Below are positions 8,538 to 59,100 of a stretch of DNA of 64,000 nucleotides, in pieces. Source of the DNA: Magnetococcales bacterium (GTDB lineage: Bacteria; Pseudomonadota; Magnetococcia; Magnetococcales; JADFWU01); the NCBI GenBank assembly GCA_015234045.1, contig JADFWU010000014.1, positions 6,208 through 70,207 of the forward strand, read 5' to 3'. A model generated the notes under the pieces. That model searched no databases, was not told where the DNA came from, and saw only the letters and a program-made list of their open reading frames with translations. Both the position numbers and the translations under genes were made by a program. Within the stretch, counting starts at the first letter, position 1. The number at the start of each line of letters is the position of its first letter.

Positions 8538-10049
8538 CTAGCCGCCGTTAACCCGAGCCACCCAGGCTTCGGCAGATACCTTCATCAGATCAAGAACCAA
8601 TCCTGGAAAGAGTCCCAAAACCAGCACGAAAACAGCCAGTGAAATCGCTATGGCCAACTCACGAGGTCGGAGATCTTCAGCCTGGATGATCAATCCATAA
8701 CGTGCGGGTCCCAAAAAAGCCTTTCTGAATAAATTCAACACATAGGCCGCACTGATTACCATGATGCCCAGTGCGGCGAGTCCTGCGCCGGTGTGGGTCT
8801 CCAATGCACTGACAATCATTAGAAATTCAGCCGGAAAACCATTGGTGCCGGGGATGCCTAATCCGGCGATGCAAAGCAGGAAGAAAAATGCCGAAAACAG
8901 CGGTTTGGTAGTGGCCAGTCCGCCAAGGCTGAGAGATTCTGTAGAGCCGGTACGATGGTGTAGAAATCCACTGAGCAGATAGAGCCCGCCCGCCACAATG
9001 GTGAAGTTGACCAACTGAAACAGCGAGCCCTGTATGCCTGACAGTGTAAGAGACGCAAGACTCAAAACTACAAGCCCTACATGGCTGACACTGGCGTAGG
9101 CGAGCATGCTGCGAAGGTTGGTTTGTGCCAAGGCCATCAGGGCACCGTAGATCATGCCTAGTGTGCCTAATCCAGCCAGCAGCCAGTGAAAATTGACCGT
9201 GGCATCAGGTGTGAGTGGAACCAGATAGCGGATCAATCCATAGACACCCAGCTTCAGACCCGTTACCCACGCAGCGGTGGTTCCACTGCCATCAATGGCG
9301 ATGGTGGGTAGCCAGGAGTGGAACGGAAACAGCGGAACTTTGGGTGCAAATCCCAGTAGAAATAGAAAGAACAGCGCGGTTTGCAGCGTAGCGCTTACCG
9401 GTGTGTCGATCAGGGTTGGATAATCAAAATTGAGAAGATAGTCCTGGCCAGAGGCGGTGATGTCTGCATGATTGATAGCCAGCAGTACAAATGCCAACAG
9501 TAATGGAATTCCGCTGGCCAACATATGCAGGGTATATTTGCTGGCCGCATAGCGCCGCCGTGGACCGTGACCCCAGTGACTGACCAGGAAATAGACCGGT
9601 ATCAACGTGGTTTCCCAAAATAGAAAAAACAGTATGGTATCCAGGGCGCAAAAGGTGCCCAGCGTGGCTGCGAGCAGGACAAGCAGTAAGCTGAAATAGA
9701 GTCTGGGCATGGCCCGAATACGGGTCCATGAAGAGAGAATAATACCAAGAAACAGCAGGCTGGTCAGTGGCAGGAAAAGCACTGAAATACCATCTACACC
9801 AACGAAGTAATTGATCTGAAGGGTTGGAATCCAACTGTGTTTTTCAACAAATTGGAATGCGCTGGTCGAGGGATCGAATCCAGCCAGAATCGCCAGGGTA
9901 AAGGCGAGAGTGATCAGCACGGAGATCAGGGCGAGGTGCCGTGCTTTGAATCGGTGCGGCGCAATCCAGATCAGCAGTGTGCCAATGGCCAGAGTAGACA
10001 GCATCATGCTGATCAATGGTAAGCCGTTTTCAATAGGTGTTTCAATCAT
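8538..10049 (-). CDS. NuoM/MrpD-like proton-translocating subunit, last gene of the DAB operon
   Basis: 503-residue polytopic membrane protein of the complex I/Mrp antiporter family. Proton-path residues expected for NuoM are present: Glu in LFFLFWETTLIP, Lys in GFAPKVPLFPFHSWLP, Lys in TGLKLGVYGLIR and a late Glu in GTNGFPAEFLMI. About 14 membrane helices are visible. AGGAG lies 9 bases before the ATG. It follows the next upstream gene by 22 bp on the same strand, in a five-gene run with DabA. No other complex I genes (NuoA-K) are near, so it is not a respiratory NADH dehydrogenase part. Inferred role: an extra ion-translocating module coupled to the DabA/DabB carbon-uptake complex. Confidence 0.85.
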   Translation of the reverse strand: MIETPIENGLPLISMMLSTLAIGTLLIWIAPHRFKARHLALISVLITLAFTLAILAGFDPSTSAFQFVEKHSWIPTLQINYFVGVDGISVLFLPLTSLLFLGIILSSWTRIRAMPRLYFSLLLVLLAATLGTFCALDTILFFLFWETTLIPVYFLVSHWGHGPRRRYAASKYTLHMLASGIPLLLAFVLLAINHADITASGQDYLLNFDYPTLIDTPVSATLQTALFFLFLLGFAPKVPLFPFHSWLPTIAIDGSGTTAAWVTGLKLGVYGLIRYLVPLTPDATVNFHWLLAGLGTLGMIYGALMALAQTNLRSMLAYASVSHVGLVVLSLASLTLSGIQGSLFQLVNFTIVAGGLYLLSGFLHHRTGSTESLSLGGLATTKPLFSAFFFLLCIAGLGIPGTNGFPAEFLMIVSALETHTGAGLAALGIMVISAAYVLNLFRKAFLGPARYGLIIQAEDLRPRELAIAISLAVFVLVLGLFPGLVLDLMKVSAEAWVARVNGG

Positions 10050-10071
10050 TCAAACTGCTCCTGAGCACCAT

Positions 10072-11586
10072 TCAATGGGTCAGCTGATAGAGATTGCCCA
10101 GCTCAACCAGGGAGCCATCAGTTAAATGGAACCAGGGCGTGGAGTAGAATCCGGTCACCAGTAGAACCGCGATAACAACGATAGATAAAAGTCGCTCCAA
10201 GGTTCGAACCGGAACCGGATTGACGAATGGTTTATCCGGCTTTTCGCCCATGAACGCCCGTTGAAATGCCCAGAGCAGAAAGCCCGCAGCCGCCACATTG
10301 CCCAGCGCTGCCGGAATGGTTACCACCGCGCCGAACCGCTCAATAGCGGCTTCCAGAATCAGATGAATCGCATCAAAACCGGGCGTGCCCGGCATGCCGA
10401 TGATGGACAGTCCCGCGATGATAAACACTGATCCGATAATCGGAAAAGATTCATACAGTCCACCCAGTCGGGAAATGATCATGGTTCGGGTTCGGTTCTG
10501 AATAAATCCCAAGGTGAAAAACAGACAGGCTACAGCCAGTCCGAAATTGATTGAGAGCATCACCCCGCCTTGAAATGCAGCATGGCCCAGACTAAATAGT
10601 CCGATAATCAAAATACTGGTGTGACTGATCACCGCAAAAGCCAACAGAGAGCGCAAATTCTTCTGAATCAGGGCCAACAGCGTTGCGTAAAACACACCCA
10701 CAACGGCTATGGTCACCACAGCTGTGTGCCAATGTGTGATCCCTTCGGGGGTGAGTGGAAATACAAATCGGACAAGGCCAAAAATGCCGACCTTCAAACT
10801 CAGTAGGAAGATCGGCGCGACGGCAACGGTGCCATGTTGAATGATTGGTGCCAGCCAGCCGTGAAACGGAAATACCGGAATTCGGATTGATAGACCGTAA
10901 AAGATCACGAAGAAAAGAATGGATTGATCAACCAGTGGTGCAGGGGTTTTGACCAGATCAAACAGATCAAAGCTCCATGTGCCGCCGGTCATATTGCTAT
11001 GGTTCAGACCGAGCATGATGGTGCCGACAAACAGCAGTACGCCACTGACAAACATAAACTGCATGTAGCGCACAAACGATGCGTTAATCTCCGGTGATGT
11101 GGCCCAATACCAGATCAGATAGCCAACCAGCATCAACTGAAGCCCGGAAACCATCGTGAACCAGAGCAGATCAACCGTAACGAATTGGCTGATCAAAGTG
11201 GATTCAATGGTTAGTGTCAGTGCCAGGAAACGCCAAGAGGGTTCCATGGGGCGAAGCCGGCCATAGGGAATCAGAATCAGAGTCAGAAAGGAGGTCAACA
11301 GCAGAAAAATAACCGAAACGCCATCAATAGCCGCATGGTATTGGATGGGGCCATAGAGTGTGACCTGTTCGGCAAACTGCATGGCCGGGTTGTCGGGTTC
11401 GTAAAGGCTATACAGCACCACAGTCATCAGAAATACTGACAATGTGCCCATCAATGCCGCTGAAAAGGCGATCTGATAGCGACGCGCATAGGTGATCAGA
11501 ATAGCCAGCAACAACGGTACAAGTTGCAGCAGGGCTAAGATCGGTACGCCCAATTGATCAGACCAGAGTAGTTCCTGATAGCTCAT
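10072..11586 (-). CDS. Atypical NuoM/NuoN-like membrane subunit in the DAB operon
   Basis: 504-residue polytopic protein of the antiporter-like family with several family marks (IRIPVFPFHGWL, LLSLKVGIFGLVRF, ALIQKNLRSLLAFAVISHTSI). Unlike its neighbours it lacks the usual key charges: the helix-5 Glu of LFWE is missing (LLWFTMVSGLQL), the helix-7 Lys is replaced by Arg in SIRIPVFP, and the late Glu is lost (GTPGFDAIHLI). It could therefore be a structural or modified ion-path subunit. Start is uncertain: the frame opens with GTG at 11598, touching the dabB stop, while ATG at 11586 has GGTGAG just upstream and is used here. Confidence 0.8.
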   Translation of the reverse strand: MSYQELLWSDQLGVPILALLQLVPLLLAILITYARRYQIAFSAALMGTLSVFLMTVVLYSLYEPDNPAMQFAEQVTLYGPIQYHAAIDGVSVIFLLLTSFLTLILIPYGRLRPMEPSWRFLALTLTIESTLISQFVTVDLLWFTMVSGLQLMLVGYLIWYWATSPEINASFVRYMQFMFVSGVLLFVGTIMLGLNHSNMTGGTWSFDLFDLVKTPAPLVDQSILFFVIFYGLSIRIPVFPFHGWLAPIIQHGTVAVAPIFLLSLKVGIFGLVRFVFPLTPEGITHWHTAVVTIAVVGVFYATLLALIQKNLRSLLAFAVISHTSILIIGLFSLGHAAFQGGVMLSINFGLAVACLFFTLGFIQNRTRTMIISRLGGLYESFPIIGSVFIIAGLSIIGMPGTPGFDAIHLILEAAIERFGAVVTIPAALGNVAAAGFLLWAFQRAFMGEKPDKPFVNPVPVRTLERLLSIVVIAVLLVTGFYSTPWFHLTDGSLVELGNLYQLTH

Positions 11587-11597
11587 ATGGCTCACCA

Positions 11598-13151
11598 CTA
11601 GAGAATGATCACAAAGGTGATGACAATCATAAAGATCAGATAGCGTGGCCGACTGAGAATCAGATCAATGCGTAACAGTTGATTGCCCAGCATTTGCAAA
11701 CCAGAGAGAAAGTTTTCACCAGTACCTTTCAAAACCATGTGTTTTTCAACCCAGTGTAACAGTGTGGCCACGGTTTGAATCAATTTACCAAATACGCCTT
11801 GGCCATAGCCGATATGGCCTTTACGATGGTCGCCGCCCTCAAATTTCATAGCTTGCCACCGTACCAGAGACGAGATGGTGTCCGATTCGCCGGACGGAAC
11901 ACCGATGAGTCGATCCACAACCCGTTCTTCGAACATTCTGGTATCCTGAGCCATTTTTCTGGCCGAGTGGGTGAACAGCATATCGCCGATCTGTTCCAGC
12001 CAGAAGCGTTGCTGTGCAGCTGTGTAGAGCCAATGCTGATTGGATAGCCACCTCGGTACGGGTTGGGCAGGTTTGCTGGTCATAAATCCCAGGGATGGCG
12101 CGTGAAACAGCTGCCATGCACGCCAACTGGCATGGGCGGCCATTGCCCAGGCTGCCAGGGTAAACCAACCCATACCACACATGAAAAACATCAAACCAAC
12201 CTGTGAAATGGTCGAGAAAATTAAAGCGCTTTTGACATCGCTCTGTACCAGTCCAGAGATCCAACCATAAAACGCTGTTAACAGACCAACGATGACCAGT
12301 AGGGTCATGATCCAAGGTTCCTGCACCAACAGCGGTGCTAATCGTAGGGTTAGATAGAGTCCGGCATGTACCATTAGAGCGCCATAAAAGATGGCGCTGG
12401 AGGGGGTTGGGCCATCCAAAGCACGTGAAATCCAGGGTGAAAAAGGGAATTGTGCAGATTTGGCCAATGCGGCCAGCATAAATCCGCAGGCAATCAGGCT
12501 TGTCTGAGAAATAAGGTCATTGCCCAGTTCCAAGGTATGAATCTGATCCCAGGAGACGGATCCCATCCACTTGTATGCCAGAAAAATTCCCAGAATAAAA
12601 CCCGCATCCCCAATCCGGTTGGTCACCATGGCGCGTTGGGCGTTGCGGGTGGCTATCGGTCGATCCAACGCATAACCGATCAGTAAAAACGAGCTCACGC
12701 CTGCCAACTCCCAGCCTACAAAAGTCAACACCGCGTTGCCGGATAGGATAATCAACATCATGCTGCCGGCAAACAGGTTCATCACCATCATAAAGCGCAT
12801 CATGCCGGCTTCATGGTGTAGATAATTGGTGGAAAAACGCATGGAAATGGTCATGAGTAGCGCAACCAATGTACCGTGCCCAAGGCTCAACCAATCCAGC
12901 GTAAAGCTGATGGGTACATGATATATGTCGCTTTCAAACCAAGTGCCGACGTCAACTTGACCGGGCAGACCCTGGATAAGGGCGATTACGTCCAATCCCA
13001 GTATAAGTAACAGCACAACAAGCGCACTCAGTGTAGAGAGATGGCCGATTTTTCGTTCATTTATGGAAAATCGACCCACCCGAGCCACAGCAATCCAGCC
13101 GCCAACCAACCAGGGTAGCAGTGGTATCAAAGCAACCAGAGTCTTAATCAT
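11598..13151 (-). CDS. dabB: DabB-like NuoL/MrpA-type subunit
   Basis: 517-residue membrane protein matching the partner of DabA in energy-coupled inorganic-carbon accumulation (DAB/DAC systems). It has the NuoL-type motifs TFVGWELAGVSSFLLIGYA, ALAKSAQFPFSPWISRALDGP with a histidine in LMVHAGLYL, and the DabB-type AMAAHASWRAWQLFHAPS. It is shorter than true NuoL (about 610) but ends with an amphipathic stretch and one terminal membrane helix that recall the NuoL lateral arm. The ATG overlaps the dabA stop by 8 bp. Established family role: supplies ion-motive force to drive vectorial CO2 hydration by DabA. Symbol given by homology of motif and context. Confidence 0.85.
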   Translation of the reverse strand: MIKTLVALIPLLPWLVGGWIAVARVGRFSINERKIGHLSTLSALVVLLLILGLDVIALIQGLPGQVDVGTWFESDIYHVPISFTLDWLSLGHGTLVALLMTISMRFSTNYLHHEAGMMRFMMVMNLFAGSMMLIILSGNAVLTFVGWELAGVSSFLLIGYALDRPIATRNAQRAMVTNRIGDAGFILGIFLAYKWMGSVSWDQIHTLELGNDLISQTSLIACGFMLAALAKSAQFPFSPWISRALDGPTPSSAIFYGALMVHAGLYLTLRLAPLLVQEPWIMTLLVIVGLLTAFYGWISGLVQSDVKSALIFSTISQVGLMFFMCGMGWFTLAAWAMAAHASWRAWQLFHAPSLGFMTSKPAQPVPRWLSNQHWLYTAAQQRFWLEQIGDMLFTHSARKMAQDTRMFEERVVDRLIGVPSGESDTISSLVRWQAMKFEGGDHRKGHIGYGQGVFGKLIQTVATLLHWVEKHMVLKGTGENFLSGLQMLGNQLLRIDLILSRPRYLIFMIVITFVIIL

Positions 13152-16100
13152 GGCATACCGCCTCGGGGTGTTGAATCAAGGCGGGCGGTAGAGGTTGTCG
13201 ATTACCGCGATACCATTCGGTTGAGTTTTTTACCAAGGGCAGGGTATCGTGGTCGTCTTGCCAGTCAATCCAACCTTTATCTGGTTGAAATGTTTTTATT
13301 TTCGCTGAATCAGGATCTTTGGCTGCCAATAACAGCCAGCCATTGCCCACAAGTTCTTGTAAGGAGGGTTGGCGTTGATAGATGGTGGTAAGTAGCTCGG
13401 TTTTAGCTTCTATCAGAACCAACAGGCGCATGGCTTCATGAATCTCCACCATCTGTTTTGGCAATCCCGTACGTAGATCTGACTCCGTACCATCCATCAC
13501 GCCAAACAGTCCTGTAACGTTATGGGTAATCTTGGAACTGCTGCCCAGATTCTGGTTATCAACGGTGGAGAAATAGTACTCCAGATTAATGCCTGCGCCT
13601 ACCGGAGCGGAACTGAGTAGAATTTTCTCTAAAATTGTGCCGTCAGGGTCTTGATCAGGATTGTAGGAGATCAGAAACGCACGACGATCAAAAAAAACGC
13701 CTTGGCTTAATGACCGGCGACCAATAAACGCAGAGGCGTTGGTGGCGTGACCAAACTCTGGTTGCACTTGGCTGATATCATAACATCTGGCTCGAACATG
13801 ATTCATCGCCTGTTTCAAGGTCGGATTGTCTGGTGCGGATGGAAATTTCCGACACCGTTCATGGGCCGAGCCATGGGCGGCGACATCCAGATCTTTCAAT
13901 AGTTTTTTAAAATTGTCTGCCAATGTGGTGGGAATCAGGTTGGTGTCATACCAGTCAAAGGTTTCATCACCGGTATTGTGTTGGGCACCGATAAAGCGGG
14001 TCGAGTTTGGGATTTCAATCCCTTCTTCACGCAATAATGCCCGTACAACAGAACGATTGGCCATGGCGGCAAACGCCCGCGCATTGGGTCCGCCGTGACG
14101 GCCTGAGCAGGCACCACACTCATAGGCGGCGACATGGGGATTGTTTTGACTGAGGGAACGATGTCCCATGATTACCACCAAAGGGGCAAACTCGCTGGTG
14201 AGTCCAATGGTTCGCAGGACGTTTTCGATGTGATCTGCCTGTTCACGGTCGGTAAAGCCCTTGCGGTTGTTTTCCGGGGTGGCATCAGTGGTGTCGTCGT
14301 TAGCGTTGAGTGTCAACTCAGTGGGCAAGGGCTTTTCTATCCGATTATGGATGGTGCGCACCATCTTCTCATGGGTAAGAGGATTAAAAACCCGATGGGC
14401 AAGTGCTGTCAGCGCAGTTGGCGCGGCCAAAAGTGTTCCCGCTGTTCCGGTCAATAGTTTATGACGGTTTTCGGTCAGTAAAAACGTTTGCAAACGCTGC
14501 CGCCAGTTACGTCTGGCATCATTGATACGCTTCTGAGCTGCGCCTACAGGTTTGACGGTTTCGCGTACTGTGTGGGATGGTTTTACCACCACCGGACACA
14601 GCGGTGTCGGTGTGGTGTCGTTCAATCCAAACCAGTTGATGGGTAAGCCAAAAAAACCCGATGCGCCCAATGTTTCAATGGCCGGGTTTTGTTCCTCCAA
14701 ATGACGGCGGATACCCTCTTCACGGTCATCCATACAGAACACGATCTGTGCTATTGGTGTCTGCGTTCTTGTTTCCCAGTGTCCTCTGTCATGGTTCTGA
14801 ATTACGGCGTGAAAAATCTGGTCTCGATAGTGCATTTCATAGGCTTGAAGCCAGATATAGCCGCTTTTCTCTGTGGAAAATGTGTTCAGACAATCGAACA
14901 GTGCGTTGGTATCCTTGCGGGTTATCTGTCGTACTTGATCACCAGTCAATCCGAGATGTTGAACCAGGCGAAACAGCCGCCATCCCAGACGATAGACCAG
15001 ATCTCCTTTTGGTCCATCCGCTGCGGGTGAGTGACGCCATGTCCAGATCTCATAGGCCATGCTGCGCCACTCTTCCTGGCTGGGTTGGTGTTCTTTGCGG
15101 CGATTGATTAATCCATGGGCGCGATTGATGGCGTATTCTGGCAGGCGATGGTTGAATAGCGTGTAGCGCACCAGAAATTCTTTTCGATTATGGTGAAAAT
15201 AGTCGCTCAATAGATCAAGATCAGGTCCAACATCCCATGTTTCACGGCACAGACGAAGTGCAAAAATGCGTTCCAGAATCAATCGAACAGCCAGATAGTC
15301 CATTATGTCGATGGATGCATCTTGTCCCTGATAATTGGGTTTGCCCTGACGCCACATGAACATGCCGGAGAAGCCGGGTAACTCCAGTGCGATACGTTCC
15401 AGGTAGCTGACCCAAAGATCACGCGGTAGCGCCCGGTGTTCCAACTCAGAAACCACCACGCTCAAAGCGTCTTCAGGTAAGGCATCAAGGAGTTCCCACC
15501 AATCTGATAACGCTTCAAAGATCCAGGCTAGATCCCGTTTCGCGCTCTCTTTCCAGTTGGCAAGAAATCCTTTGTCACGTGATTGGGCGTGCCAAGCAGC
15601 AATACCGAGATCCATATGATTGGAGAGTTGCCGCGTCAATAATGGGCGGATCTCATCCATGATGTCTTCGCCAGTCAAGGCGATCAGCATGCCGCGAAGC
15701 GTGAGGTTTGGTCCTACCTGTTCCATAAGAGAGTTGATCAGCGCGCGGGCTTCCCGTTTCATTTGACGCTGGACGTGAAATTCCTGGTTTTGCGTCTGTG
15801 CTGACTGTTCGGCATAAATCTCAATAAAGGCTTCCGCTTGATCGGGTGACAGATCAAGCAACTCTTCGGGATGCAGGCTATGATGCTTTATGTCGAGCGC
15901 ATCCAAACAGGCGGACCAAAGATCCCGGGTGATCTCTGCTTCAGAATCTTCATTGCCACCGCCAAGCAGTTGCTGGCGGACCTCCTGTGGTAGATCGCTT
16001 TGTAATCTGTCCAGTGCGCCCATTTCCTCTATCTGCCAATTCAACTGACTGGCGGTGACGGATTTAAAGGGAAAACGCAGACTGCATAGATAGATTTCGC

Positions 16101-16443
16101 GCTGAAGAATCTGTCTATCTCCGATGGTAATAACCGGTTTGTCTGGTTCGAGTGCTGGGCTGTTGTCAAGAGTGTCGGTGAGATCTTTTAGGGTGATACG
16201 GCCTTGGTTAAATAGGGTGCGAAAGTGCGTTTTTGGGAGATAGGCGGAGATGCCGGTGCGCTTTTTAAGTTCTTCCAGTGCTTTTTCAAAATGAAGATGT
16301 TGGTAGCCGTGCAACGTGTTGTGATGGACAAAATCCCGCAATGGTGCTTGAGCAGGCAATATATGCTCAAAATGGGCCACCGCTTCACGCAACCACTGGT
16401 GGTTGTGTTTATGAATTTTGGGTGTCTCTGTTACAGGAATCAT
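13144..16443 (-). CDS. dabA: DabA inorganic-carbon transporter subunit (DUF2309)
   Basis: Large soluble, membrane-associated protein that resembles a beta-carbonic anhydrase active site and, with DabB, traps CO2 as bicarbonate inside the cell. The predicted zinc and catalytic residues are visible: Cys570 and Asp572 in FCMDDREEG, His761 in IMGHRSLSQNNPH, and Cys776 in AYECGACSG, with the same 15-residue His-Cys spacing reported for the Halothiobacillus protein. GGPNARAFAAMANR follows. At 1099 residues it is longer than the roughly 800-residue DabA first characterised, with an extended N-terminal half. The start ATG at 16443 has only a weak ribosome-binding site. It is second in a five-gene minus-strand run. 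Confidence 0.93.
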   Translation of the reverse strand: MIPVTETPKIHKHNHQWLREAVAHFEHILPAQAPLRDFVHHNTLHGYQHLHFEKALEELKKRTGISAYLPKTHFRTLFNQGRITLKDLTDTLDNSPALEPDKPVITIGDRQILQREIYLCSLRFPFKSVTASQLNWQIEEMGALDRLQSDLPQEVRQQLLGGGNEDSEAEITRDLWSACLDALDIKHHSLHPEELLDLSPDQAEAFIEIYAEQSAQTQNQEFHVQRQMKREARALINSLMEQVGPNLTLRGMLIALTGEDIMDEIRPLLTRQLSNHMDLGIAAWHAQSRDKGFLANWKESAKRDLAWIFEALSDWWELLDALPEDALSVVVSELEHRALPRDLWVSYLERIALELPGFSGMFMWRQGKPNYQGQDASIDIMDYLAVRLILERIFALRLCRETWDVGPDLDLLSDYFHHNRKEFLVRYTLFNHRLPEYAINRAHGLINRRKEHQPSQEEWRSMAYEIWTWRHSPAADGPKGDLVYRLGWRLFRLVQHLGLTGDQVRQITRKDTNALFDCLNTFSTEKSGYIWLQAYEMHYRDQIFHAVIQNHDRGHWETRTQTPIAQIVFCMDDREEGIRRHLEEQNPAIETLGASGFFGLPINWFGLNDTTPTPLCPVVVKPSHTVRETVKPVGAAQKRINDARRNWRQRLQTFLLTENRHKLLTGTAGTLLAAPTALTALAHRVFNPLTHEKMVRTIHNRIEKPLPTELTLNANDDTTDATPENNRKGFTDREQADHIENVLRTIGLTSEFAPLVVIMGHRSLSQNNPHVAAYECGACSGRHGGPNARAFAAMANRSVVRALLREEGIEIPNSTRFIGAQHNTGDETFDWYDTNLIPTTLADNFKKLLKDLDVAAHGSAHERCRKFPSAPDNPTLKQAMNHVRARCYDISQVQPEFGHATNASAFIGRRSLSQGVFFDRRAFLISYNPDQDPDGTILEKILLSSAPVGAGINLEYYFSTVDNQNLGSSSKITHNVTGLFGVMDGTESDLRTGLPKQMVEIHEAMRLLVLIEAKTELLTTIYQRQPSLQELVGNGWLLLAAKDPDSAKIKTFQPDKGWIDWQDDHDTLPLVKNSTEWYRGNRQPLPPALIQHPEAVCHD

Positions 16444-16500
16444 AATCGGTTTCTGTCTCAGGGGCTGAAGGGGTGACTTGTCTGTCTTAGGTGTTTGCCT

Positions 16501-17961
16501 CTATTGAATAAATAAAGTGCTGAATTGTGTCACAGACGCAGTGAATAACGATACTGTCGGTGCCGGATAAATCCCAATAACGATAATACTCACAGCTAAC
16601 GTCCCAACAGCGATAAGTTCATGTGGTCTAAGATCATCAATATTCCGAATGGATGGTCGTACCGGACCGGTAAAAAGGCGGCCAATCGTACGCAGTGCAT
16701 AGGCTGCACTGATGATTACACCCAGTGCCAGAATTGATGCAGACCATCCCCATTGCTGAAACCCACCGATCAACGTGTGCAATTCGGCAATAAAGCCTGC
16801 TGTACCCGGTAGGCCCGTGCCTGCAACCAGTGCCAACACGGTAAACAGTGCAAAACGCGGTGTGATCAGTACCAGGGAGCTATAGTCACCAATGTCACGC
16901 GTATGTGTGCGTTCATAAAGCAGACCAATCAGCAAAAAAAGGCTGCCCGCCACCAATCCATGGGCAACCATCTGCAATACCGCACCCGTCATGCCGATGA
17001 GATTGAACGAGGCAATTCCCATCAGAACCACGCCCATATGACTGACTGAAGCGTAGGCAATCATCCGTTTAAGGTCTCGTTGTCGCCAAGCCAGCAGACC
17101 ACCGTAAATCAATCCGATCAGTGCCAGTGCATAGAGCATATCCTGAAATGCTAATGCTGCTGTTGGCAGTGTCCCAGAGATTCGGATCAATCCATAGGCC
17201 CCCATTTTTAACAGGATGCCGGAGAGCAGGATACTGACAGGACTCGGTGCTTCCACATGGGCCAAGGGTAACCAGCCATGAATCGGAAAAACAGGCATTT
17301 TGACACCAAATCCGATTAAAAAACCTAAAAAGACCAATATCTGTGTATCCAATGGCAGAGTCTTAGCACCCAAGGCGATAGCGGACATCTCGAAACTACG
17401 GTTTGGTGAAGCATCAAAAAGAACCAATAGGCTGATCAGCATGAATACCGAACCGCCCAGAGTGTAGAGCATGAAGTTGATGGATGCGCCGTGTCGATTG
17501 GGTCCGCCCCAAAAGTTGATCAGGAAAAACAGCGGAATCAGCGTCACTTCCCAGAACAGGTAGAATATGGCCCAATCCCGCGCCATAAACACACCAAGGG
17601 TCGCGGTCTCAAGCACCAACATCAGCATGTAATAGCCTTTGATCGGCCTGCGAACGCCTTTGGATGCTAACAAGGAGACAAAGCATAACAGTGCGGTCAG
17701 TAGCACCATTGGGTAGGAAAAACCATCAATGCCCAGGGCATAGGATGTGCCCAAATGGGTGTTCCATTGAAGGTGTTCAACGAATTGAAGCGTGGCAACG
17801 GTGGTATCAAACAGAAACCAAAGCCATCCTGCCAAACCCAGTGCAAGCCCGCTGTGTAGGAGGGCAATTCGACGGATTAGCGTATACTGTCTTGGAGAGA
17901 GTAAAAAAATAATACCCATGCCGAACAGTGGAATGCCCAACAATAGGGAAAGATAACTCAT
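16501..17961 (-). CDS. NuoM/MrpD-like proton-translocating subunit, first gene of the DAB operon
   Basis: 486-residue, about 14-helix membrane protein with the complete NuoM signature: Glu in LFWEVTLIPLFF, Lys in GFGVKMPVFPIHGWLP, the classical HVEAPSPVSILLSGILLK and late Glu in GTAGFIAELHTL. The frame extends upstream to 18141, but that part is not membrane-like; ATG at 17961 with AAGGAT before it begins directly with the first helix. 57 bp separate it from dabA, all on the minus strand. It is much closer to canonical NuoM than the third antiporter-like gene. Inferred: ion-translocating module of the enlarged DabAB complex, or an Mrp-like antiporter tied to it. Confidence 0.87.
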   Translation of the reverse strand: MSYLSLLLGIPLFGMGIIFLLSPRQYTLIRRIALLHSGLALGLAGWLWFLFDTTVATLQFVEHLQWNTHLGTSYALGIDGFSYPMVLLTALLCFVSLLASKGVRRPIKGYYMLMLVLETATLGVFMARDWAIFYLFWEVTLIPLFFLINFWGGPNRHGASINFMLYTLGGSVFMLISLLVLFDASPNRSFEMSAIALGAKTLPLDTQILVFLGFLIGFGVKMPVFPIHGWLPLAHVEAPSPVSILLSGILLKMGAYGLIRISGTLPTAALAFQDMLYALALIGLIYGGLLAWRQRDLKRMIAYASVSHMGVVLMGIASFNLIGMTGAVLQMVAHGLVAGSLFLLIGLLYERTHTRDIGDYSSLVLITPRFALFTVLALVAGTGLPGTAGFIAELHTLIGGFQQWGWSASILALGVIISAAYALRTIGRLFTGPVRPSIRNIDDLRPHELIAVGTLAVSIIVIGIYPAPTVSLFTASVTQFSTLFIQ

Positions 17962-23705: not shown

Positions 23706-24539
23706 TTAGGGCCAGTATTTAAGGATGGCAATAATAGTGCCGCTGCTCGCAATTGTGAGACCGAAAGACCAAATCATAAAGCGGTCGATACGCCTGTTTA
23801 GCTCGAAAAAGCGTTTATCCATAGCAGCTTGAGTGCTTTCAAAGCGCTTATCCATAGCAACCAGGCTACTTTCAAAGCGCTTATCTACTTGGTTAAAGCG
23901 CTTATCCATAGCAACCAGGCCACTTTCAAAGCGCTTATCTACTTGGTCAAAGCGCTTATCCATAGCAACCAGGCTACTTTCAAAGCGCTTATCTACTTGG
24001 TCAAAGCGCTTATCCATGGCAGCTTGAATGCTTTTAAAGCGCTGATCCATGGTCGCTAGAGTGCTTTCAAAGCGCTTGTCCATAGCAACTTGGTTGCTTT
24101 CAAAGCGTTTATCTACTTGGTCAAAGCGCTTATCCACAGCAACCTGGTTGCTTTCAGAGGATTTGTCCACTTTGTCAAAGCGCTGATCCATAGCAATCTG
24201 GTTGCTTTCAGAGGATTTGTCCACTTTGTCAAAGCGCTGATCCATAGCAACCTGGTTGCTTTCAAAGCGCTTGTTTATATCTTTTTGCAAGAGCTCAAGA
24301 CGTTTTTCTGTCTGTCCAATATGCTTTTCTGTTTGTTCAATACGTCTCTCAACCAGCGCAAAGCCCTGCTGCATCAACTCTCGGTGATGCTTCATCTCGA
24401 TCTCGACTTGGACGATGCGTTCGCGGATTTCTAAGGCGTAGATGTCTCGTGAAGACGCAACGGTCGTTTCCCCGAAGAGTTCTCCACGGTGATTTTTGAT
24501 GGTTTCAATAATCAGTTGTTCAATCTCAACACGTTCCAT
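23706..24539 (-). CDS. Membrane-anchored coiled-coil repeat protein (DUF1640/CCDC90-like architecture)
   Basis: 277 residues: a head of about 55 residues (IEQLIIETIKNHRGELFGE), a neck with EQTEKHIGQTEKR, a stalk of 18-residue repeats such as MDKRFDQVDKRFESSLVA and shorter 11-residue versions, and one C-terminal membrane helix (MIWSFGLTIASSGTIIAIL). The 7- and 11-residue periods point to a parallel oligomeric coiled coil. This head-neck-stalk-anchor plan is known for prokaryotic relatives of CCDC90/MCUR1. Function unknown. The stalk is encoded by near-identical 54-bp DNA repeats, so copy number may vary between strains. Confidence 0.75.
   Translation of the reverse strand: MERVEIEQLIIETIKNHRGELFGETTVASSRDIYALEIRERIVQVEIEMKHHRELMQQGFALVERRIEQTEKHIGQTEKRLELLQKDINKRFESNQVAMDQRFDKVDKSSESNQIAMDQRFDKVDKSSESNQVAVDKRFDQVDKRFESNQVAMDKRFESTLATMDQRFKSIQAAMDKRFDQVDKRFESSLVAMDKRFDQVDKRFESGLVAMDKRFNQVDKRFESSLVAMDKRFESTQAAMDKRFFELNRRIDRFMIWSFGLTIASSGTIIAILKYWP
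23806..24276. repeat. 54-bp and 33-bp in-frame tandem repeats
   Basis: The coding DNA of the coiled-coil stalk repeats AAAGCGCTTATCCATAGC-type units. Full 54-bp units encode 18 residues (7+7+4) and short 33-bp units encode 11 (7+4). Several neighbouring 54-bp units differ at only a few bases, indicating recent duplication. Confidence 0.9.
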
Positions 24540-33698: not shown

Positions 33699-34517
33699 TT
33701 AGTTCAACAAGAGAAGAGCAAGTTGCGGTTGCTGATTGGCTTGAGCCAAAACAGCGGTGCCCGCTTGCTGGAGAATCGCATTCCTGGTCAGGTTGCTTGT
33801 CTCCGTAGCAATATCAGCATCCATGATCCGGGAACGCGCAGCTTCAGTGTTCTCGGAAATGTTGCTCAAACTGGCAATGGCCGATTCCATGCGGTTCTGA
33901 ACCGCACCCAACGTGGCGCGAATGTCAGAAACGCTGGCAATAGCAGAGTCCAGCGTGGTGATTGCAGTATTAGCTACCGTTTGTTGGGAAATGTTAACCG
34001 CGTTAACGCCAAGATCCGTTGCTGACGCACTGTCGATTGTCATGGCAATGGTTTGGCCAGCGTCTGGGCCGACCTGGATCTTGTTTGCGTTAATGCCACC
34101 GAGCAACAACGTTTTGTCGTTGAATTCGGTGTCACTGGCAATACGGGCCACTTCGGAAATCAGCTCGTCCAGTTCCGTCTGGAGATCTTGCCGATCACTG
34201 GTGGTATAGGTGTCACTGGCAGCTTGCACAGCCAGTTCACGCATCCGCTGCAAGGCGCTTTCGGTCTCATCCAGAGCACCGTCAGCAACTTGAACCAGAG
34301 AAATCGCGTCATTAGCGTTGCGAATCGCCTGGTTGGTGCCACGAATTTGAGCGGTCATCTTGCCAGCGATGGAAAGACCAGCCGCATCATCCGCAGCAGA
34401 GTTCACGCGCAGACCAGAGGAGAGACGCGCAAACGTCTTGCCCAGCTGGTTGGTGGACTCATTGAGATGACGACGCGCGGTTAGGGCGGCGATATTACCA
34501 TTGATTGAGAGAGCCAT
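33699..34517 (-). CDS. fliC: Flagellin (third of three)
   Basis: 272-residue flagellar filament protein. N-terminal domain: SINGNIAALTARRHLN, KTFARLSSGLRVNSAADDAAGL, GTNQAIRNANDAISLVQVADGAL. C-terminal domain: RATLGAVQNRMESAIASL and AQANQQPQLALLLLN. The central part is very short, so only the D0/D1 core is present and the variable outer domains are missing. AGGAG precedes the ATG. 61 bp downstream of the second flagellin on the same strand, before two hairpins. Part of a tandem family; subunits may occupy different filament segments. Confidence 0.95.
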   Translation of the reverse strand: MALSINGNIAALTARRHLNESTNQLGKTFARLSSGLRVNSAADDAAGLSIAGKMTAQIRGTNQAIRNANDAISLVQVADGALDETESALQRMRELAVQAASDTYTTSDRQDLQTELDELISEVARIASDTEFNDKTLLLGGINANKIQVGPDAGQTIAMTIDSASATDLGVNAVNISQQTVANTAITTLDSAIASVSDIRATLGAVQNRMESAIASLSNISENTEAARSRIMDADIATETSNLTRNAILQQAGTAVLAQANQQPQLALLLLN

Positions 34518-34578
34518 CTTTATTCTCCTGAAACAATTTGTTTCCTGTTTCTAAACTGTTGACCATCAAGCCTGTCAG

Positions 34579-35454
34579 TTACCGCAATAGCATGAGTGCC
34601 AATTGAGGTTGCTGATTGGCTTGAGCCAGAACCGCTGTGCCTGCTTGTTGCAGGATAGAGTTTCTGGTCAAATTGCTGGTCTCTTCAGCAATATCTGCAT
34701 CCATAATCCGGGAACGCGCTGATTCAGTGTTTTCAGACATGTTGGTCAAGCTGGAAGCAGCTGATTCCAATCGATTTTGGGTCGCGCCAAGCGTGGCCCG
34801 AATGTCCGAAATACTCGCGATAGCTGTATCCAGAGTCGTGATGGCTGAGGCGGCAAATGAAGCGCCGGTCTCCGCACCCGTAGCACTGAAATGTAGATTC
34901 GTTCCGTCGAGTAGAATGCCTACTGTTGAGGCCGCAGCTGCATTGATGGTCAAATCAATGGTTTGCCCTGCGTCCGCACCGATCATGAACTTGAAGGCTG
35001 TTGTGCCAGCGGTGCTGTATCCACCTGCCGCACTGCCGCCAAGTAAATTTTGTCCGTTGAACTCCGTGTCTGCCGAAATCCGGTTGATCTCGGAGATGAG
35101 CTGATGAAGCTCTGTCTGGAGGTCTGAACGGTCACTTGTTGTCAACGTGTCGCTGGCCGCCTGAACGGACAGTTCCCGCATGCGCTGAAGCGCACTCGTG
35201 GTCTCTTCCAGAGCACCATCCGCAACTTGAATCAATGAAATCGCATCATTGGTGTTGCGAACAGCCTGGTTGGCACCGCGAATTTGGGCAGTCATCTTGG
35301 AGGCGATGGACAGTCCTGCCGCATCGTCCGCCGCTGAATTGACCCGAAGCCCGGACGAAAGCCGTGCAAAGGTCTTGCCCAAGGAACTGGTAGCATTGCT
35401 CAGATTGCGCCGTGCGGAGAGCGACGTGATATTTGAATTAATGGAGAGAGACAT
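34579..35454 (-). CDS. fliC: Flagellin (second of three)
   Basis: 291-residue flagellin, the longest of the three. It shares SSGLRVNSAADDAAGLSIA and SRIMDADIAEETSNLTRNS with its neighbours but has a larger middle segment (GGSAAGGYSTAGTTAF and a Gly/Thr-rich stretch) and ends in LALMLLR instead of LALLLLN. It is the most divergent copy (SARRNLSNATSSLG). AGGAGAA before the ATG. 32 bp after the first flagellin stop, so the genes are probably transcribed together. Confidence 0.95.
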   Translation of the reverse strand: MSLSINSNITSLSARRNLSNATSSLGKTFARLSSGLRVNSAADDAAGLSIASKMTAQIRGANQAVRNTNDAISLIQVADGALEETTSALQRMRELSVQAASDTLTTSDRSDLQTELHQLISEINRISADTEFNGQNLLGGSAAGGYSTAGTTAFKFMIGADAGQTIDLTINAAAASTVGILLDGTNLHFSATGAETGASFAASAITTLDTAIASISDIRATLGATQNRLESAASSLTNMSENTESARSRIMDADIAEETSNLTRNSILQQAGTAVLAQANQQPQLALMLLR

Positions 35455-35486
35455 ACTGTTCTCCTGTCACCTTATCGCTAAACCGC

Positions 35487-36347
35487 TCAGTTCAAAAGAA
35501 GCAGAGCCAGCTGTGGTTGTTGATTAGCTTGAGCCAATACCGCTGTGCCTGCTTGTTGCAGGATGGCGTTTCTGGTCAGATTGCTTGTTTCCGAAGCGAT
35601 GTCCGCATCCATGATGCGTCCACGTGCTGCCTCGGTGTTTTCTGACAGATTGCTCAAACTCGCTATTGCTGATTCCAGACGGTTCTGAACCGCGCCCAGT
35701 GTGGCACGAATATCAGAAACACTATCCAGAGCCGTATCCACCGCTGTAATCACCGAACCCGCTCTGAGTTGAGCAGATGTGGTGGTCATGGCCGTGATGT
35801 CCGCTGCACTGCCCATGTTGGATGCAATTACACCGATAGCCGATGTGCCCGCATGTTTGATGGCCAGATCAATGGTTTTTCCAGCATCGTGACCGATGTG
35901 GAATTTCACCTCAAAACTGCCGTTGGTTCCAGCCAGAAGATTCTGATCATTAAACTCGGTATCTGATGAGATACGGTCGATTTCAGACAGAAGTTCTGTC
36001 ACCTCTTCCCAAAGATCGGATCGATCTGAAGTGGTGTATGTGTCGCTGGAAGCTTGAACTGCCAGCTCTCGCATCCGCTGCAAGGCATTTTCGGTCTCAG
36101 CGAGGGCGCCTTCCGCTACCTGAGCCAGAGAAATGGCATCATTGGCATTGCGGATGGCTTGGTTTGTTCCCCGAATTTGAGCCGTCATTCCTGTGGCAAT
36201 CGAGAGTCCTGCTGCGTCGTCCGCTGCGGAATTAACCCGCAATCCAGACGACAAGCGGGCAAAAGTCTTACCGAGCCTGTCTGATGCACTGTTCAAGTGC
36301 CGACGGGCGGTAAGTGCCGCTATGTTGCTATTAATCGTGAGAGACAT
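35487..36347 (-). CDS. fliC: Flagellin (first of three)
   Basis: 286-residue flagellin with intact N- and C-terminal coiled-coil domains (TINSNIAALTARRHLNSASD at the start, LAQANQQPQLALLLLN at the end) and a short variable middle around GTNGSFEVKFHIGHDAG. First gene of the tandem set, so the main promoter should be in the long region upstream (36348-37032). AAGGAA lies close to the ATG. Tandem short flagellins are typical of magnetococci, an inference that supports the taxonomic guess. Confidence 0.95.
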   Translation of the reverse strand: MSLTINSNIAALTARRHLNSASDRLGKTFARLSSGLRVNSAADDAAGLSIATGMTAQIRGTNQAIRNANDAISLAQVAEGALAETENALQRMRELAVQASSDTYTTSDRSDLWEEVTELLSEIDRISSDTEFNDQNLLAGTNGSFEVKFHIGHDAGKTIDLAIKHAGTSAIGVIASNMGSAADITAMTTTSAQLRAGSVITAVDTALDSVSDIRATLGAVQNRLESAIASLSNLSENTEAARGRIMDADIASETSNLTRNAILQQAGTAVLAQANQQPQLALLLLN

Positions 36348-39457: not shown

Positions 39458-42400
39458 CTATAAGCTGAGAGAAACCGTCTGAGTCGGTTGTTCTATCGTG
39501 AGTGTGATGTCCGATTGTGCGGCCTCAACGGTAGAATAATCCTCATCACTGTCTATTGTGATTCTGTAAGTCTTTTCGACCTGTAGACCGGAGACGCGGT
39601 AGTTGCCATCTTTATCGGTCACGACATTCGCCACAAAGCTACTGCTTTCAGAATCAAATACTGTCACCAAAGCACGTGCTGCATCAACGCCACTTAATGT
39701 ACCGCTGATCTCACCCTGATGATCAGATAGTGTGAGGATCGTATAGGCCAGGTCGGAGTCTGTCAGATCAATACCGGATTGATAGGCCACACCTTCCTGA
39801 GTCCATACCTTGAGTTGATAGTCAGACATTGGTGACAGGTCGGTGATTTCAAAACTGCCATCTGATTGGGTCGTGGCTTGACTGCCATACTCGCCGATTT
39901 TGTTCCAAGCCAACACAATCACATCGGAGAGGGCGTTTCCATCCAAATCCTGAAGCGTGCCGGAAATGCTTCGACCTGGGATCAGTTCGATATTCATATC
40001 ACTAACGTCACTGTTGACTGTGAGAGTGTCTGCTTCAGACCACGAAGCGCTCCAACCCGATGCCGAACCGCTGGCGTAATACATGACAGGAAAGCCGCTG
40101 GCAGAGAAGGAGATGAAATAATCACCAGGTGGTAGATCAGTAATGGTTAATGTGCCATCTCCACGCCGGAAGTCTGCTTCATAGAGCTCTTTCTCCGTAC
40201 TCCATAGATCCATGGCGACCACCAGATCGTCATTTTCGGTGCCCAAACCGGATATGGTCGTTTCAACTGAATAGGTGATGGAGCCACCAAGGATGAAGTT
40301 GACTCCTGTTGAGGATAAACCATTCTCAGTGGTTAGGGTTGTGGCATCTTTTGGTGAAGGTACGCTCTCACCGTTTCCAGCATAAAAATAACGGCGCTCA
40401 TTCCGTTCAATAGAGATCTGATAATCAAAGGCTGACTCAAGTCCTTCCAGTGTATAGGGCTGGTCTGAACCATCATCACTGATCACCACAACAGAAGCAA
40501 AACGTCCAAGGCTTGGAGAAAACGCTTCCACGGTGACCACATCACCTTCAACCAGACCGGAAATTTCACCAGAGATGGACGCGCCGCTTTGAAGGGTGAA
40601 ATCCACGCTGTCCTTGCTGCTGCTGGATATGTCTACATGAATCGGCTCTGAATCCTGGCGGCCTTGGACAAACAGTTTGACCTGATAATCGGATAAAGGA
40701 CGCAAGCCTTTCATCATATAGACACCAGTATCAGGATCAATCAAAGCAACGGTATTTTCACCAGTGGAAGGGGAGGATGCTCCAATCCAAGCGTCAACCT
40801 GATCGGGCAGTCCCTGAACTGTTCCGCTGATGGAAAAACCGGTGGAAACCACCAGGTCGATATCATCTCTGTCGCTGTCTTTAAGCAAAATAGGCTTGGC
40901 AAGATCAAAAGGCTTCAGCGAACCTCCAACCACATAGCATCCGGGAGTCATGGTTTGAGTCTTAAGGCAGACGCGATAGTCATTGGCTGGAGGTAGACCA
41001 TGTATCTCATAATCAACGCTGCTGGATGTGCCGGTAACCTTAACATATTGACCCAAACGTAGATTTGTAGACCAGGCGCTTATTTCAGCTTTCTCGCCTG
41101 AGGGCAGGCCGGAGATCGTTCCACCAATGGACAGTGCTGAACTGAGATTAACCGCTAAGGAGATACCGCCAACGCCTTCGGAGAGGTCCAAAATCCGTGC
41201 CTGATTGGGGTCTGGGCGCAATTTATTGTCGGCATCCAAAAAACCGCCAAGCACATTGCCGGATAGGGGATTGATGTGAACCGTATAGTCCGGTGCTGGT
41301 CTGAGATTGGTAAAAGAGACCAATAGATCACTACCGGTTCCGTTGACCTGTTCCCAAGCACCTAATCCGCTGCTGTTGGAGGAGATGTCAATCTCAATGC
41401 TGGCTCCGACAGGTGCGCCAGTGATGGTTAGATTCAGTGATTGGGCAACCTTAAGTTCAATACCAATATTATCCTTGTCAGTCTGAGTCAGATCTATAAT
41501 GGATGCCTTGTCCCAAGTGACGCCGCTGGATGTGGTGTTGCTGGAACTGCCGCCCCAAAAACCACTGGGATAGCTGGTTGAGAACCACTGAAGCCGGTAA
41601 TCATCCACTCTTTTCAATCCGCCGATGGAAAAATCAATGGGCTGTCCATCGCCAATAATGTTGGTTTGAGTATAGTGGCCCACCGAAGGCGCGTAGAGTG
41701 ATATCGTCAACGATGTGCCTGTGGCAAGACCGTTGATTGTCCCGGAGATGCTGCGCTCTGGTTGCTCGACATTAATGATAAAATTCTGAACAATATCAGC
41801 CTGATTTGAAATGAGCTCTACGGTGAACGTTGCTGTGTAGGTGCCGGGCTGGTTGAAGATATGTTCGGCTTCATTGCCTTCTTTAACTGTGCCATCACTG
41901 AATGACCAATAGGCCCGTTTGACCTGCTCATCCAAAGAGGTTGTGGTGGCTTGGAAGTTGAATGTGTCTCCAGAGCGCAATCCCGGTTCAGGCAGTTTTA
42001 CCGAATCAACACCATGATGAGTGGATTGTGTTGAATCGAAAGGAAATTGATCCAGATCATCGGTGACACCATCGTTATCGTCATCATCGTCACACAGATC
42101 ACCTTGGGCATCATTATCGTTGTTGGCTTGGTCACTATTAGCGACATCAGGGCAGTTATCCAAGTCGTGAACGATGCCGTCTCCGTCCAAATCAACGACA
42201 GCGGGATCAGCGAGATGAACAGGAACGAGGGAATCGGTTCTGGAACCATTGCCTAGCTGACCATCACTGTTATTGCCCCAACTCCAGACAGAACCATCGG
42301 ATTTTTGCGCCATGCCATGAGTAAATCCAGCGCTGATGGCGGATGCATTGGTCAGGTTGGTTACTTTGACCGGATAGGGCGAGGCGTTAGTGCTGTTATT

Positions 42401-45397: not shown

Positions 45398-45539
45398 AAA
45401 TCTCAACTATCCGGGCGCATGGGCGACGGGTTGTCTGATTTGAATGGAAAACAGCCTTATCCTCTATTGTATCGGTTTTTCAGGCGAATTTGTTAAAGGA
45501 TTTTATGTAGAATGGGTAGTTTGAGGTGGAATCGGGAAA

Positions 45540-56178: not shown

Positions 56179-59100
56179 TTACTGTCTTGGTGTTGGACGG
56201 ACCGTTACCAGCACTCTTCTTCCTGAACTATCCAAATAGTGGAGATTAGGCAATCCGCCGGGTATCAATAGTGAGTTGACCGGCCTGTCTTCTAAGATAT
56301 CCTGATCATTGATCCTATAGAGTCGGATGGCAAAATCCGTTGGCTCGGTCACCTCAGGGAACGTCACTGTGTGGGTGAATTCAAAGGAAGTCGATTCTTC
56401 GCCTTTATAGGCCCATGGTGTCCAGTCTGTTTTTTCAGAAGTGAGTCGATTTGACGCGTATATGACCTGTTCAAATTTTTGGCCACAGGCTGCCAGATTT
56501 TCCGGGTCACAGGCAAACAAGGCAATCTGGGATTGGTAATCCATATGGTATCCCAGAAGTTCCCAGCGAATTTCATAGCTTTCACCACCAATGATCTGTT
56601 CTGGAATATCAAAATCTGTCAAAACAGGTGGCATGCGGCGGGCGGCTTGTTCTCTTGATGATTCATCCGTAAACGGATTGGTTTCAATGCGTGACCAAGC
56701 GTCTGCAAGAATATTCGCTTTCGTCTGGTCAAGCGCTGGATCATCCTCGTTGTTTACTGTTGGTTCATTAGCTGTTGGATTTTCTCCAGTATTGGCGGGA
56801 AGCACCATGAGACGCAATCGGCGTCCGGTTGTACCATAGTACTCTCCTTCTTGCAGGCCACCCGGAATCAAGAGTGATATGGCCTGATGATCAGCTGCGT
56901 TGTCCAGATCATTGATTCTATAGAAACGCAATACCATCTCAGTGGGTTGGCTGACATCTGGGACCATTAGCTGATCTTCAAACAGTGACTTCCTTGCGGG
57001 AATGGTGCCATAGCTCCACTGACTGCTTATATTTCCTACAGAGTTGATTTTACCGGTTGTAGCCACATTATCGTTGTAGAATAGACCGCATTCTCCTTCA
57101 GCATGTTGATCACAATCAAACAGTGCGACAGCCGATTGATAGGATGCATGATAGCCGACCATTGACCATTTGACCGTCATTGCCTCTCCGCCATATACCT
57201 TGACAGGCAGGTCCACATCAAACAGAACCGGCGGCATGCGTCGTGCCGCTTCAATTAGTTCCTGGTTGTCCAATGGTGGATTAAACCAAGCGGTAATCGT
57301 CGTGTCCTCAGTGATTGTGACAGAGCATGTAGTAGCAAAGCCACATGTCGGCTCACTCCAACCGACAAAATGGCCTTGATTGGCATCCGTGCCGAGATCT
57401 ACTGTCAATTCAATTGCAGATCCATTATCCATTGTGACAGAACACTCGGTAGCGCCAAGGCCGCAATCCAAACCATTATTCAGATTGAATACACGTCCAA
57501 TATTCTCGTCTGACAATTGAATGGTTACTCGTGCAACCCCCGTTTTCTGTGGGTTCCAAGGTGCGAGATCATTCAGATTATTTACGCCATCGCCATCTAT
57601 GTCGTCATCACACTTATTGCCGACACCATCCTGATCCATGTCATACTGATTGGTGTTGCTTTCTGTTGGGCAATTGTCGAATGAATCGAGTGTGCCATCG
57701 TCATCAATGTCGGCTTTGATATTCAAAGGTACTTGAATGGGTTCTGAGCTATCAAGTATTGAACCATTTCCCATAATCTCATAACTACTCATACCCCAAC
57801 CCCAGGTAGAGCCGTCTTCTGTATAGGCAAGAACATGGGCGTTGTTCATTGCCAATGCTGTAATATTCATGAGTCCCTGGATTTGCTCTTTCGTACACTC
57901 ACAACTGCTTTCTTCTGTGGGCGAACCCAATTGTCCAAAGTTATTGTTTCCCCAGGACCACACAGTATCATCTGTCCCGATGACAATCGTGTGTTTTGCA
58001 TAGTGTCCACCATATATACGCTTGATTTCTGGCAGTCCTTTTACTAATACAGGCGTTAAGCGGTCTGTGGTTGAATTGTCTCCAAGCCAGCCAAGCCCAT
58101 TGTCTCCCCAAGCCCAAACTGAACCATCAGATTTGAGAGCCATGGTCATCATTTTTCCAGTGGTAACGCTGATAACATCAGTCAAACTGGAAATTTGGAC
58201 AGGCGTATGATGGTCTTCAGTCGTCCCATCACCAATGACCCCATTGTCGTTATTTCCCCACCCCCAGAGCGTGCCATCGGATTTGACAGCAAAGGACTGA
58301 GCGCTTCCTGAGGCAATAGCAATAACATCTGAAAGATCCAATGCTTGAACTGGAGAGGCTTTAGTTATTGTCGTTCCATCTCCAAGCTGGCCATGGTTGT
58401 TCCTTCCCCATGCCCAAACTGTTCCATCCGATTTCAGGGCTATTGAGTGGTCTGAACCTAAGGAAACAGTCGTTACATCACGAAAACCTTCAATTCGTGT
58501 TGGTGTTTTTGTAGTCGTTATAAATCCAGATTCTGAAATGTGATCTCCACCCCATGACCACACTGCACCATCAATGGTTACTGCAACCGTGTGTCTATCA
58601 CCAGCAGATACGGAAACAGTATTCTCTAATCCATGGAGTTGAATTGGTGTTGAGATTGGTCCCTCACCAAAGGCAGCCATTTGTTCGTCAGTGAGGCCCA
58701 GTTGATCATTGGTATTGTTTCCCCAAACCCATACGGTGCCGTCTGCTTTTGAGATTATAGTGTGTCTCATGCCCATTGAAATGGATACTTCTGGTTCCAT
58801 TATTGGCGTATTTGGACTGTAGTCATCATCATCCAATAGACCATCGGCATCGGTGTCGGGATTGTGGGGGTTCGCATTTTTGAGAAATTCGCCCAGATTG
58901 GATAATCCATCTTGATCAGGGTCATCCTCTGCATCATTTCCGGCGTTTTGTGGATTGAAGCCATGAAGTATTTCAAATGAATCTGGCAGGCCATCGCCAT
59001 CATCATCACCATCACAAAGATCACCTTGACCATCTTGGTCCAGGTCTAATTGGTCAGAATTGGCATCAATGAGGCAGTTGTCCTGGTGGTCATGTATGCC

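Follow-up and report, generated by a model that had tools for sequence, protein, structure and literature searches.

The window analysed here, a stretch of 64,000 nucleotides from a Magnetococcales bacterium (GCA_015234045.1, contig JADFWU010000014.1), carries five closely spaced minus-strand genes (8538-17961, positions counted within the window) that associate DabA, a carbonic anhydrase-like protein, with four antiporter subunits resembling those of respiratory complex I. In the order of transcription they encode M1, DabA, DabB, Mx and M2, a set which the initial annotation had interpreted as an enlarged form of the two-gene DAB carbon-uptake systems. All five open reading frames (ORFs) were found at the positions claimed for them, and they are listed below with one predicted element of DabA and the evidence used for each.

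16501..17961, minus strand: M1, NuoM-like, 486 amino acids (ORF, Pfam, NCBIfam, residues, own clade)
13144..16443, minus strand: DabA, carbonic anhydrase-like subunit, 1099 amino acids (PF10070, alignment with PDB 9rd0 and 104 relatives)
14386..14550, minus strand: DabA finger, residues 632-686, predicted helical hairpin (AlphaFold model, column counts)
11598..13151, minus strand: DabB, NuoL-like, 517 amino acids (PF00361 and PF00662, residues, truncation)
10072..11598, minus strand: Mx, degenerate NuoM-like, 508 amino acids (NCBIfam, residues, fusions, co-occurrence with DabA)
8538..10049, minus strand: M2, NuoM-like, 503 amino acids (ORF, families, residues, own clade)

The intergenic gaps are, in order, 57, -8, -1 and 22 bp, DabB overlapping DabA by 8 bp. 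Mx starts with a GTG codon and has an in-frame ATG 12 bases further in, with which the third gap becomes 11 bp; these values match the gaps first reported (57, -8, about 0-11 and 22 bp). DabA matches PF10070 with 778 bits, while PF00361 is present in M1, DabB, Mx and M2 and PF00662 in DabB only. With the NuoM family TIGR01972 (cut-off 263.8 bits), M1, Mx and M2 score 488, 271 and 419 bits, respectively, all above the cut-off. As already noticed, no NuoA-K or NADH-binding gene occurs among the ORFs of at least 100 amino acids at 3264-24539 or of at least 200 amino acids further right. Beside the cluster we saw neither small Mrp subunits, hence no mrpA-G set, nor the NADH, Fe-S and quinone modules of a respiratory complex I. 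A scan for promoters and terminators returned sites no more numerous than in shuffled sequences.

Regarding the conservation of this arrangement, the survey covered the host order and the best 80 loci from a scan of 84,980 species genomes. In 60 loci from several classes, the order M1-DabA-DabB-Mx-M2 is fully preserved on one strand, and most incomplete loci end at or near a contig end. Chance or an assembly artefact as the cause of the cluster is ruled out by these 60 loci, which also provide the conserved synteny of the DUF2309 (dabA) gene with antiporter genes that the initial annotation had suggested looking for. Five-gene hosts include Magnetococcales, Nitrosomonas marina Nm71 (L086), Nitrosomonas sp. 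Nm132 (L080), Nitrotoga (L081) and Methylomonas methanica (L104), and two further loci from Thiothrix (L073:9935-22000; L107:8950-21400, the latter from Thiothrix fructosivorans) contain an internal tandem duplication of DabA and DabB within the same order (M1-DabA-DabB-DabA'-DabB'-Mx-M2).

In the phylogenetic tree, M1, Mx and M2 form one clade each (SH-aLRT, an approximate likelihood-ratio support, of 100, 100 and 99), separate from the NuoM proteins of both E. coli and the host. These separate clades, together with the host's own nuo genes, which lie on another contig (C33), rule out that the three are ordinary complex I nuoM copies; separate Mrp-like clusters are located on C95 and C51. DabB of the enlarged systems likewise forms one clade (99/99, 23 rows), apart from two-gene DabB (100/100) and from NuoL, and neither its grouping with NuoL nor that with two-gene DabB was rejected (p-AU, from the approximately unbiased test, of 0.41 and 0.19).

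Co-inheritance was followed with an Mx profile (A2) to which full-length Mx orthologs score at least 586 bits and all other antiporters at most 298, one split Mx copy scoring 402 and 305 bits. In the host order, DabA and Mx are both present in 34 genomes and both absent from 14, with no exceptions (n=48), these genomes being kin and hence not 48 independent events; family f5 has both in two genomes and neither in two. Among a wider sample of 398 Pseudomonadota, the sole genome outside the host order to possess Mx (G218) is one with a long DabA and the five-gene set, and none of the approximately 30 short-DabA genomes outside this order has Mx. The genes can also be joined or separated. Natural DabB-Mx fusions were found at three loci (L115, L132 and L118) and a DabB-M fusion at another (L129); in two Competibacter-like genomes (L115, L132, L191, L193), DabB and Mx form a single protein, and M2 adjoins a beta-carbonic anhydrase gene. 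In two Magnetococcales genomes, dabA is unlinked, the four antiporter genes being still clustered and both parts kept; in family f4, it adjoins a CheW-receiver gene, with an M1-M2-DabB-Mx cluster apart (L031, L189, L190). Unlinking of the extra subunits in relatives had been put forward as an argument against an enlarged complex; followed here in part, the argument cuts both ways, as the genes can become unlinked and the parts are nonetheless kept. With synteny, orthology, co-occurrence and gene fusion all in agreement, the conserved multi-subunit DabA/antiporter system that had been predicted is strongly supported by comparative sequence evidence.

Other forms of DabA locus surround this five-gene type. 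A three-gene form, DabA-DabB-M, is present in Sorangium, Myxococcus and Planctomycetes. Its single M, in the myxobacterial version, clusters with Mx, which suggests Mx as the first extra subunit gained. A six-gene form, corresponding to the five genes plus an MrpD-like subunit, was found in metagenome-assembled genomes assigned to Rubrobacter, Chloroflexi and Rubrivivax, and in Roseovarius autotrophicus; positional orthologs of M1, Mx and M2 are all present in the six-gene loci. A still larger locus occurs in Nitrospinaceae (L140:9920-20629), where DabA precedes an Mrp/MBH-type set (MnhE, MnhG, MbhD/E, MnhB, MnhC/NuoK-like, MrpD, NuoL-like, NuoM-like), so that the comparison with Mrp made at the outset was apt; a Nitrospirales locus (L141) shows the same spacing of DabA, M, long NuoL-like and M. 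Of note, one genome (G315) encodes, besides a short-type DabA, a DabA of 995 amino acids together with a short DabB of 440 amino acids and a very diverged antiporter-like protein of 433 amino acids (L202:110-5719).

The precedent for proton-driven CO2 hydration is DAB2, the DabA2-DabB2 complex of Halothiobacillus neapolitanus (PMC13144422). Its numbering was rebuilt by alignment with PDB 9rd0 and is consistent with all residues of that study that were tested, the sets compared being 104 long and 26 short DabAs, 97 enlarged-type and 26 short-type DabBs and, for the finger columns, 58 sequences. DAB2 and the window cluster have in common the zinc ligands, the Asp-Arg dyad, the NuoL-like TM1-11 (transmembrane helices 1-11) of DabB and a Lys-Asp ion pair. 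Indeed, the active-site residues first predicted for DabA (C570, D572, H761 and C776) align with C351, D353, H524 and C539 of DabA2, and the ligands C570, H761 and C776 and the dyad D572-R574 are invariant in all 104 long and 26 short DabAs. With this PF10070 zinc site and dyad, and an adjacent NuoL-like PF00361 subunit, the cluster belongs to the DAB/DAC systems. The 1099-residue length of DabA had been correctly given, but is ordinary for this subfamily rather than unusual.

The picture of a standard DabAB pair plus three subunits proved wrong in detail, however, since DabA and DabB differ from their two-gene counterparts at fixed functional sites and DabB lacks TM12-15. DAB2 consists of two genes, dabB first, has no NuoM-like subunits and possesses Glu444, Leu658 and Ser356 in DabA and, in DabB, Ile151 and extra helices; the window system has instead Glu575, His899, no finger glutamate, Glu148 in a truncated DabB and three NuoM-like partners. 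Ser356, present in 26/26 short DabAs, is replaced by Glu in 98 of the 104 long ones (E575), and the active-site Leu658, equally fixed in the short proteins (26/26), by His in 102 (H899). Leu658 occupies the position of the transition-state glutamine of beta-carbonic anhydrases, and with a fixed histidine in its place the active site may be less latent. As for the finger, Glu444 is found in all 26 short DabAs, whereas the long-DabA finger has no mostly acidic column, with the reservation that finger lengths differ between the two groups and the exact counterpart of Glu444 is uncertain; its conserved charges are basic (R660 in 57/58, H661 in 49/58 and R684 in 56/58). In DAB2, both E444A and E444Q abolish activity, and a Glu introduced at position 151 of DabB halves the growth yield (PMC13144422), a residue that is naturally present in 93/97 enlarged-type DabBs (E148 in the window) and in 0/26 of the short type. 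The finger and this position thus both depart from the DAB2 type.

DabB of the window keeps TM1-11, with E148, R179, D182 and K231, but the NuoL TM12-15 stretch is gone after TM11 in five- and three-gene DabBs (from about residue 346 in the window protein); in six-gene DabB, helices are kept in this region, without Lys399-Asp400. In the enlarged systems, His260 of DabB2 is mostly Tyr and Lys347 mostly Arg. Since ion pairs are formed in complex I with the TM5 glutamate near the subunit interface (PMC13144422), Glu148 fits a DabB that would have a neighbour, namely Mx. As the enlarged system carries changes that damage DAB2, its coupling path, judged from these residues, is probably different.

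The three additional subunits are not equivalent. Taking E144, K234, K265 and E407 of E. coli NuoM as channel reference, M1 (E138, K221, K252 and E393, conserved in 82-83/83 relatives) and M2 (E146, K237, K266 and E408, in 69-73/74) are complete, with a NuoM-type Glu in TM12 instead of the Mrp-type Lys. Mx has G152, R239, K269 and I411 at these positions; the Arg and Lys are fixed, and neither the TM5 nor the TM12 glutamate remains, the latter being retained in six-gene Mx. Its designation as atypical was hence well founded, and with both glutamates missing from Mx, two rather than three of the extra channels look complete. The AlphaFold model of DabA (mean predicted local distance difference test, pLDDT, 83; predicted template modelling score, pTM, 0.82) places the finger helices at 632-656 and 663-686. 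For the natural DabB::Mx fusion L132 (pTM 0.58), the first 360 residues of DabB (TM1-11) and the Mx half are mostly well modelled, unlike residues 361-530, and the best fold matches are complex I NuoM chains (TM-score about 0.9 by target length).

Beyond the gene content, orthology, co-inheritance, residue gains and losses and DabB-Mx fusion established here, we infer that the five proteins would assemble in one particle, and we extend the proposal to its direction, ion, stoichiometry and activity on CO2. At a probability of about 0.55, the five genes would encode one membrane complex performing proton-driven vectorial CO2 hydration, with lateral coupling through a complex I-like arm. The zinc subunit DabA would use the proton motive force to convert CO2 into cytoplasmic bicarbonate, and its finger helices would contact the NuoL-like DabB. 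Because its own channel is broken, Mx, beside DabB, would act as a structural or electrostatic relay, and M2 and M1 would lengthen the arm by one complete NuoM-type proton channel each. Coupling would be lateral, as in the complex I membrane arm, the DAB2-type exit path being unused, and the benefit would be a larger driving force per CO2 or function at low proton motive force. By our own arithmetic, one proton at 150 mV corresponds to 14.5 kJ/mol and already allows ~300-fold bicarbonate accumulation, so that the benefit of extra protons would lie in operation under low-energy conditions, in irreversibility or in speed, and not in making accumulation feasible at all. More tentatively, and with odds somewhat against it, the system may represent an unrecognised class of multi-channel proton-driven CO2 hydrases, in which a carbonic anhydrase stands in for the redox arm of a complex I-like membrane module and more than one proton is used per CO2; with the DAB2 coupling glutamate and DabB TM12-15 lost, energy would then be forced laterally via Mx into two complete pumps.

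Several observations weigh against a single complex of this kind. The outer half-channel of DAB2 is thought to be formed by the finger and TM12-13 (PMC13144422), and the loss of both elements could mean weak or no proton conduction through DabB. Moreover, the window DabB has Ala336 where 87/97 enlarged-type and 26/26 two-gene DabBs have His, which in DabB2 (His339) is needed for activity. In the L132 model, the relative placement of DabB and Mx is not confident, and we make no claim of an interface. In the Competibacter-like genomes, DabA is with DabB-Mx, yet M1 or M2 is elsewhere. Finally, a Methylococcales locus (L121:13195-23186) has M1-DabA, with DabB, Mx and M2 all missing from the 10 kb that follow, an arrangement that may reflect a rearrangement or misassembly.

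Such breaks in linkage of M1 or M2, and family f4 with its dabA unlinked from four antiporter genes that stay together, are what one would expect if DabA-DabB were a working pump as in DAB2 and M1-Mx-M2 a separate, co-regulated Mrp-like antiporter, for instance for proton or sodium rebalancing during CO2 uptake, all the more as two-subunit DABs suffice in H. neapolitanus and others (PMC13144422). We consider this unlikely: DabB clusters with Mx and is even fused to it, DabB has no TM12-15 and DabA no glutamate of the sort DAB2 needs, Mx has no complete channel of its own, and Mx tracks DabA perfectly in the host order. Improbable too, and more so, is a sodium- or bicarbonate-coupled transporter in place of a proton-driven CO2 hydrase. 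The homologous pair MpsAB has been proposed as a sodium/bicarbonate symporter, as cited in PMC13144422, and the six-gene form has gained an MrpD-like subunit; the zinc site and Asp-Arg dyad are nevertheless invariant, M1 and M2 have the NuoM-type Glu rather than the Mrp-type Lys in TM12, and DAB2 shows no sodium dependence (PMC13144422). The system might also run in reverse, an exergonic DabA reaction pumping ions out and building a gradient, as was proposed in 2017 (PMC5700660), before DabA was known to be carbonic anhydrase-like. Although M1 and M2 resemble intact pumps, we regard this as very improbable, since by established thermodynamics the free energy of CO2 hydration would be too small for several protons, and a dependence of DAB2 on the proton motive force has been reported (PMC13144422).

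A role of the proposed complex in inorganic carbon metabolism is supported by gene neighbours in relatives. A SulP gene (PF00916) lies immediately upstream of M1 in three loci (L042, L072, L126), and in L104 M2 is followed by a beta-carbonic anhydrase gene (PF00484); in L135 such a gene is situated a few kb downstream, and L089 contains one bearing the same motif. In the host genome, DabA is the only PF10070 protein found and PF00484 has no match; replacement of beta-carbonic anhydrase by DabA was considered and discarded, the presence of PF00484 in the order not tracking that of DabA. RuBisCO-linked CO2 concentration is not supported in the host order either (PF00016 in 0/48 genomes); cultured Magnetococcus fixes carbon by the reductive tricarboxylic acid cycle. 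Elsewhere in the window are a 277-amino acid protein (23706-24539) that contains numerous nearly identical 'AMDKRFDQVDKRFESS' repeats and has a hydrophobic stretch at its C-terminal end, three flagellin-like genes in tandem (33699-36347) and two giant proteins of 1982 and 2463 amino acids with many repeats resembling RCC1 (39458-45406 and 56179-63570).

Among known systems, the complex I arm and Mrp also combine one NuoL-like with several NuoM/MrpD-like subunits, and complex I has the TM5 Glu, TM7 Lys, TM8 Lys and TM12 Glu conserved in M1 and M2. In contrast, NuoA, J, K and H or MrpB, C, E, F and G were not seen with the five-gene form, several of them being present in L140, and a carbonic anhydrase-like subunit stands in place of the NADH or quinone module. 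Cyanobacterial NDH-1MS similarly bears a carbonic anhydrase-like subunit on NuoL/NuoM-like antiporter subunits, but it has a full complex I body, is driven by ferredoxin and uses the unrelated CupA protein. To our knowledge, accumulation of dissolved inorganic carbon or rescue of carbonic anhydrase mutants is known only for DAB/DAC members of one to three subunits. NDH-1MS is mentioned as a CO2-uptake complex in PMC10880623; in the literature searched, other papers on DAB complexes describe two or three subunits or give no subunit count. A short note based on COGNAT (PMC5700660) reported in 2017 a 'clade C' in which the ybcC (DUF2309) gene precedes a nuoL homologue, frequently accompanied by NuoM and SulP genes, and proposed that the number of subunits sets the number of ions, so that this idea is not new in outline. 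That note does not define a fixed set of subunits, nor does it give residues, orthology, fusion or co-occurrence. The features that appear to be new in the literature searched are the five-subunit set as defined here with its orthology, the degeneration of Mx, the truncated DabB, the missing DAB2 coupling glutamate, the fusion of DabB with Mx and the joint occurrence of Mx and DabA.

Current understanding of CO2 uptake by vectorial carbonic anhydrases is limited to a two-subunit form. If the proposal is correct, the enlarged form of nitrifiers, methanotrophs, sulfur oxidisers and Magnetococcales would show a stepwise evolution of proton-per-CO2 coupling, which the natural series of 2-, 3-, 5- and 6-gene systems makes directly testable, and it would provide a redox-free test system for the sideways transfer of energy among the antiporter subunits of complex I.

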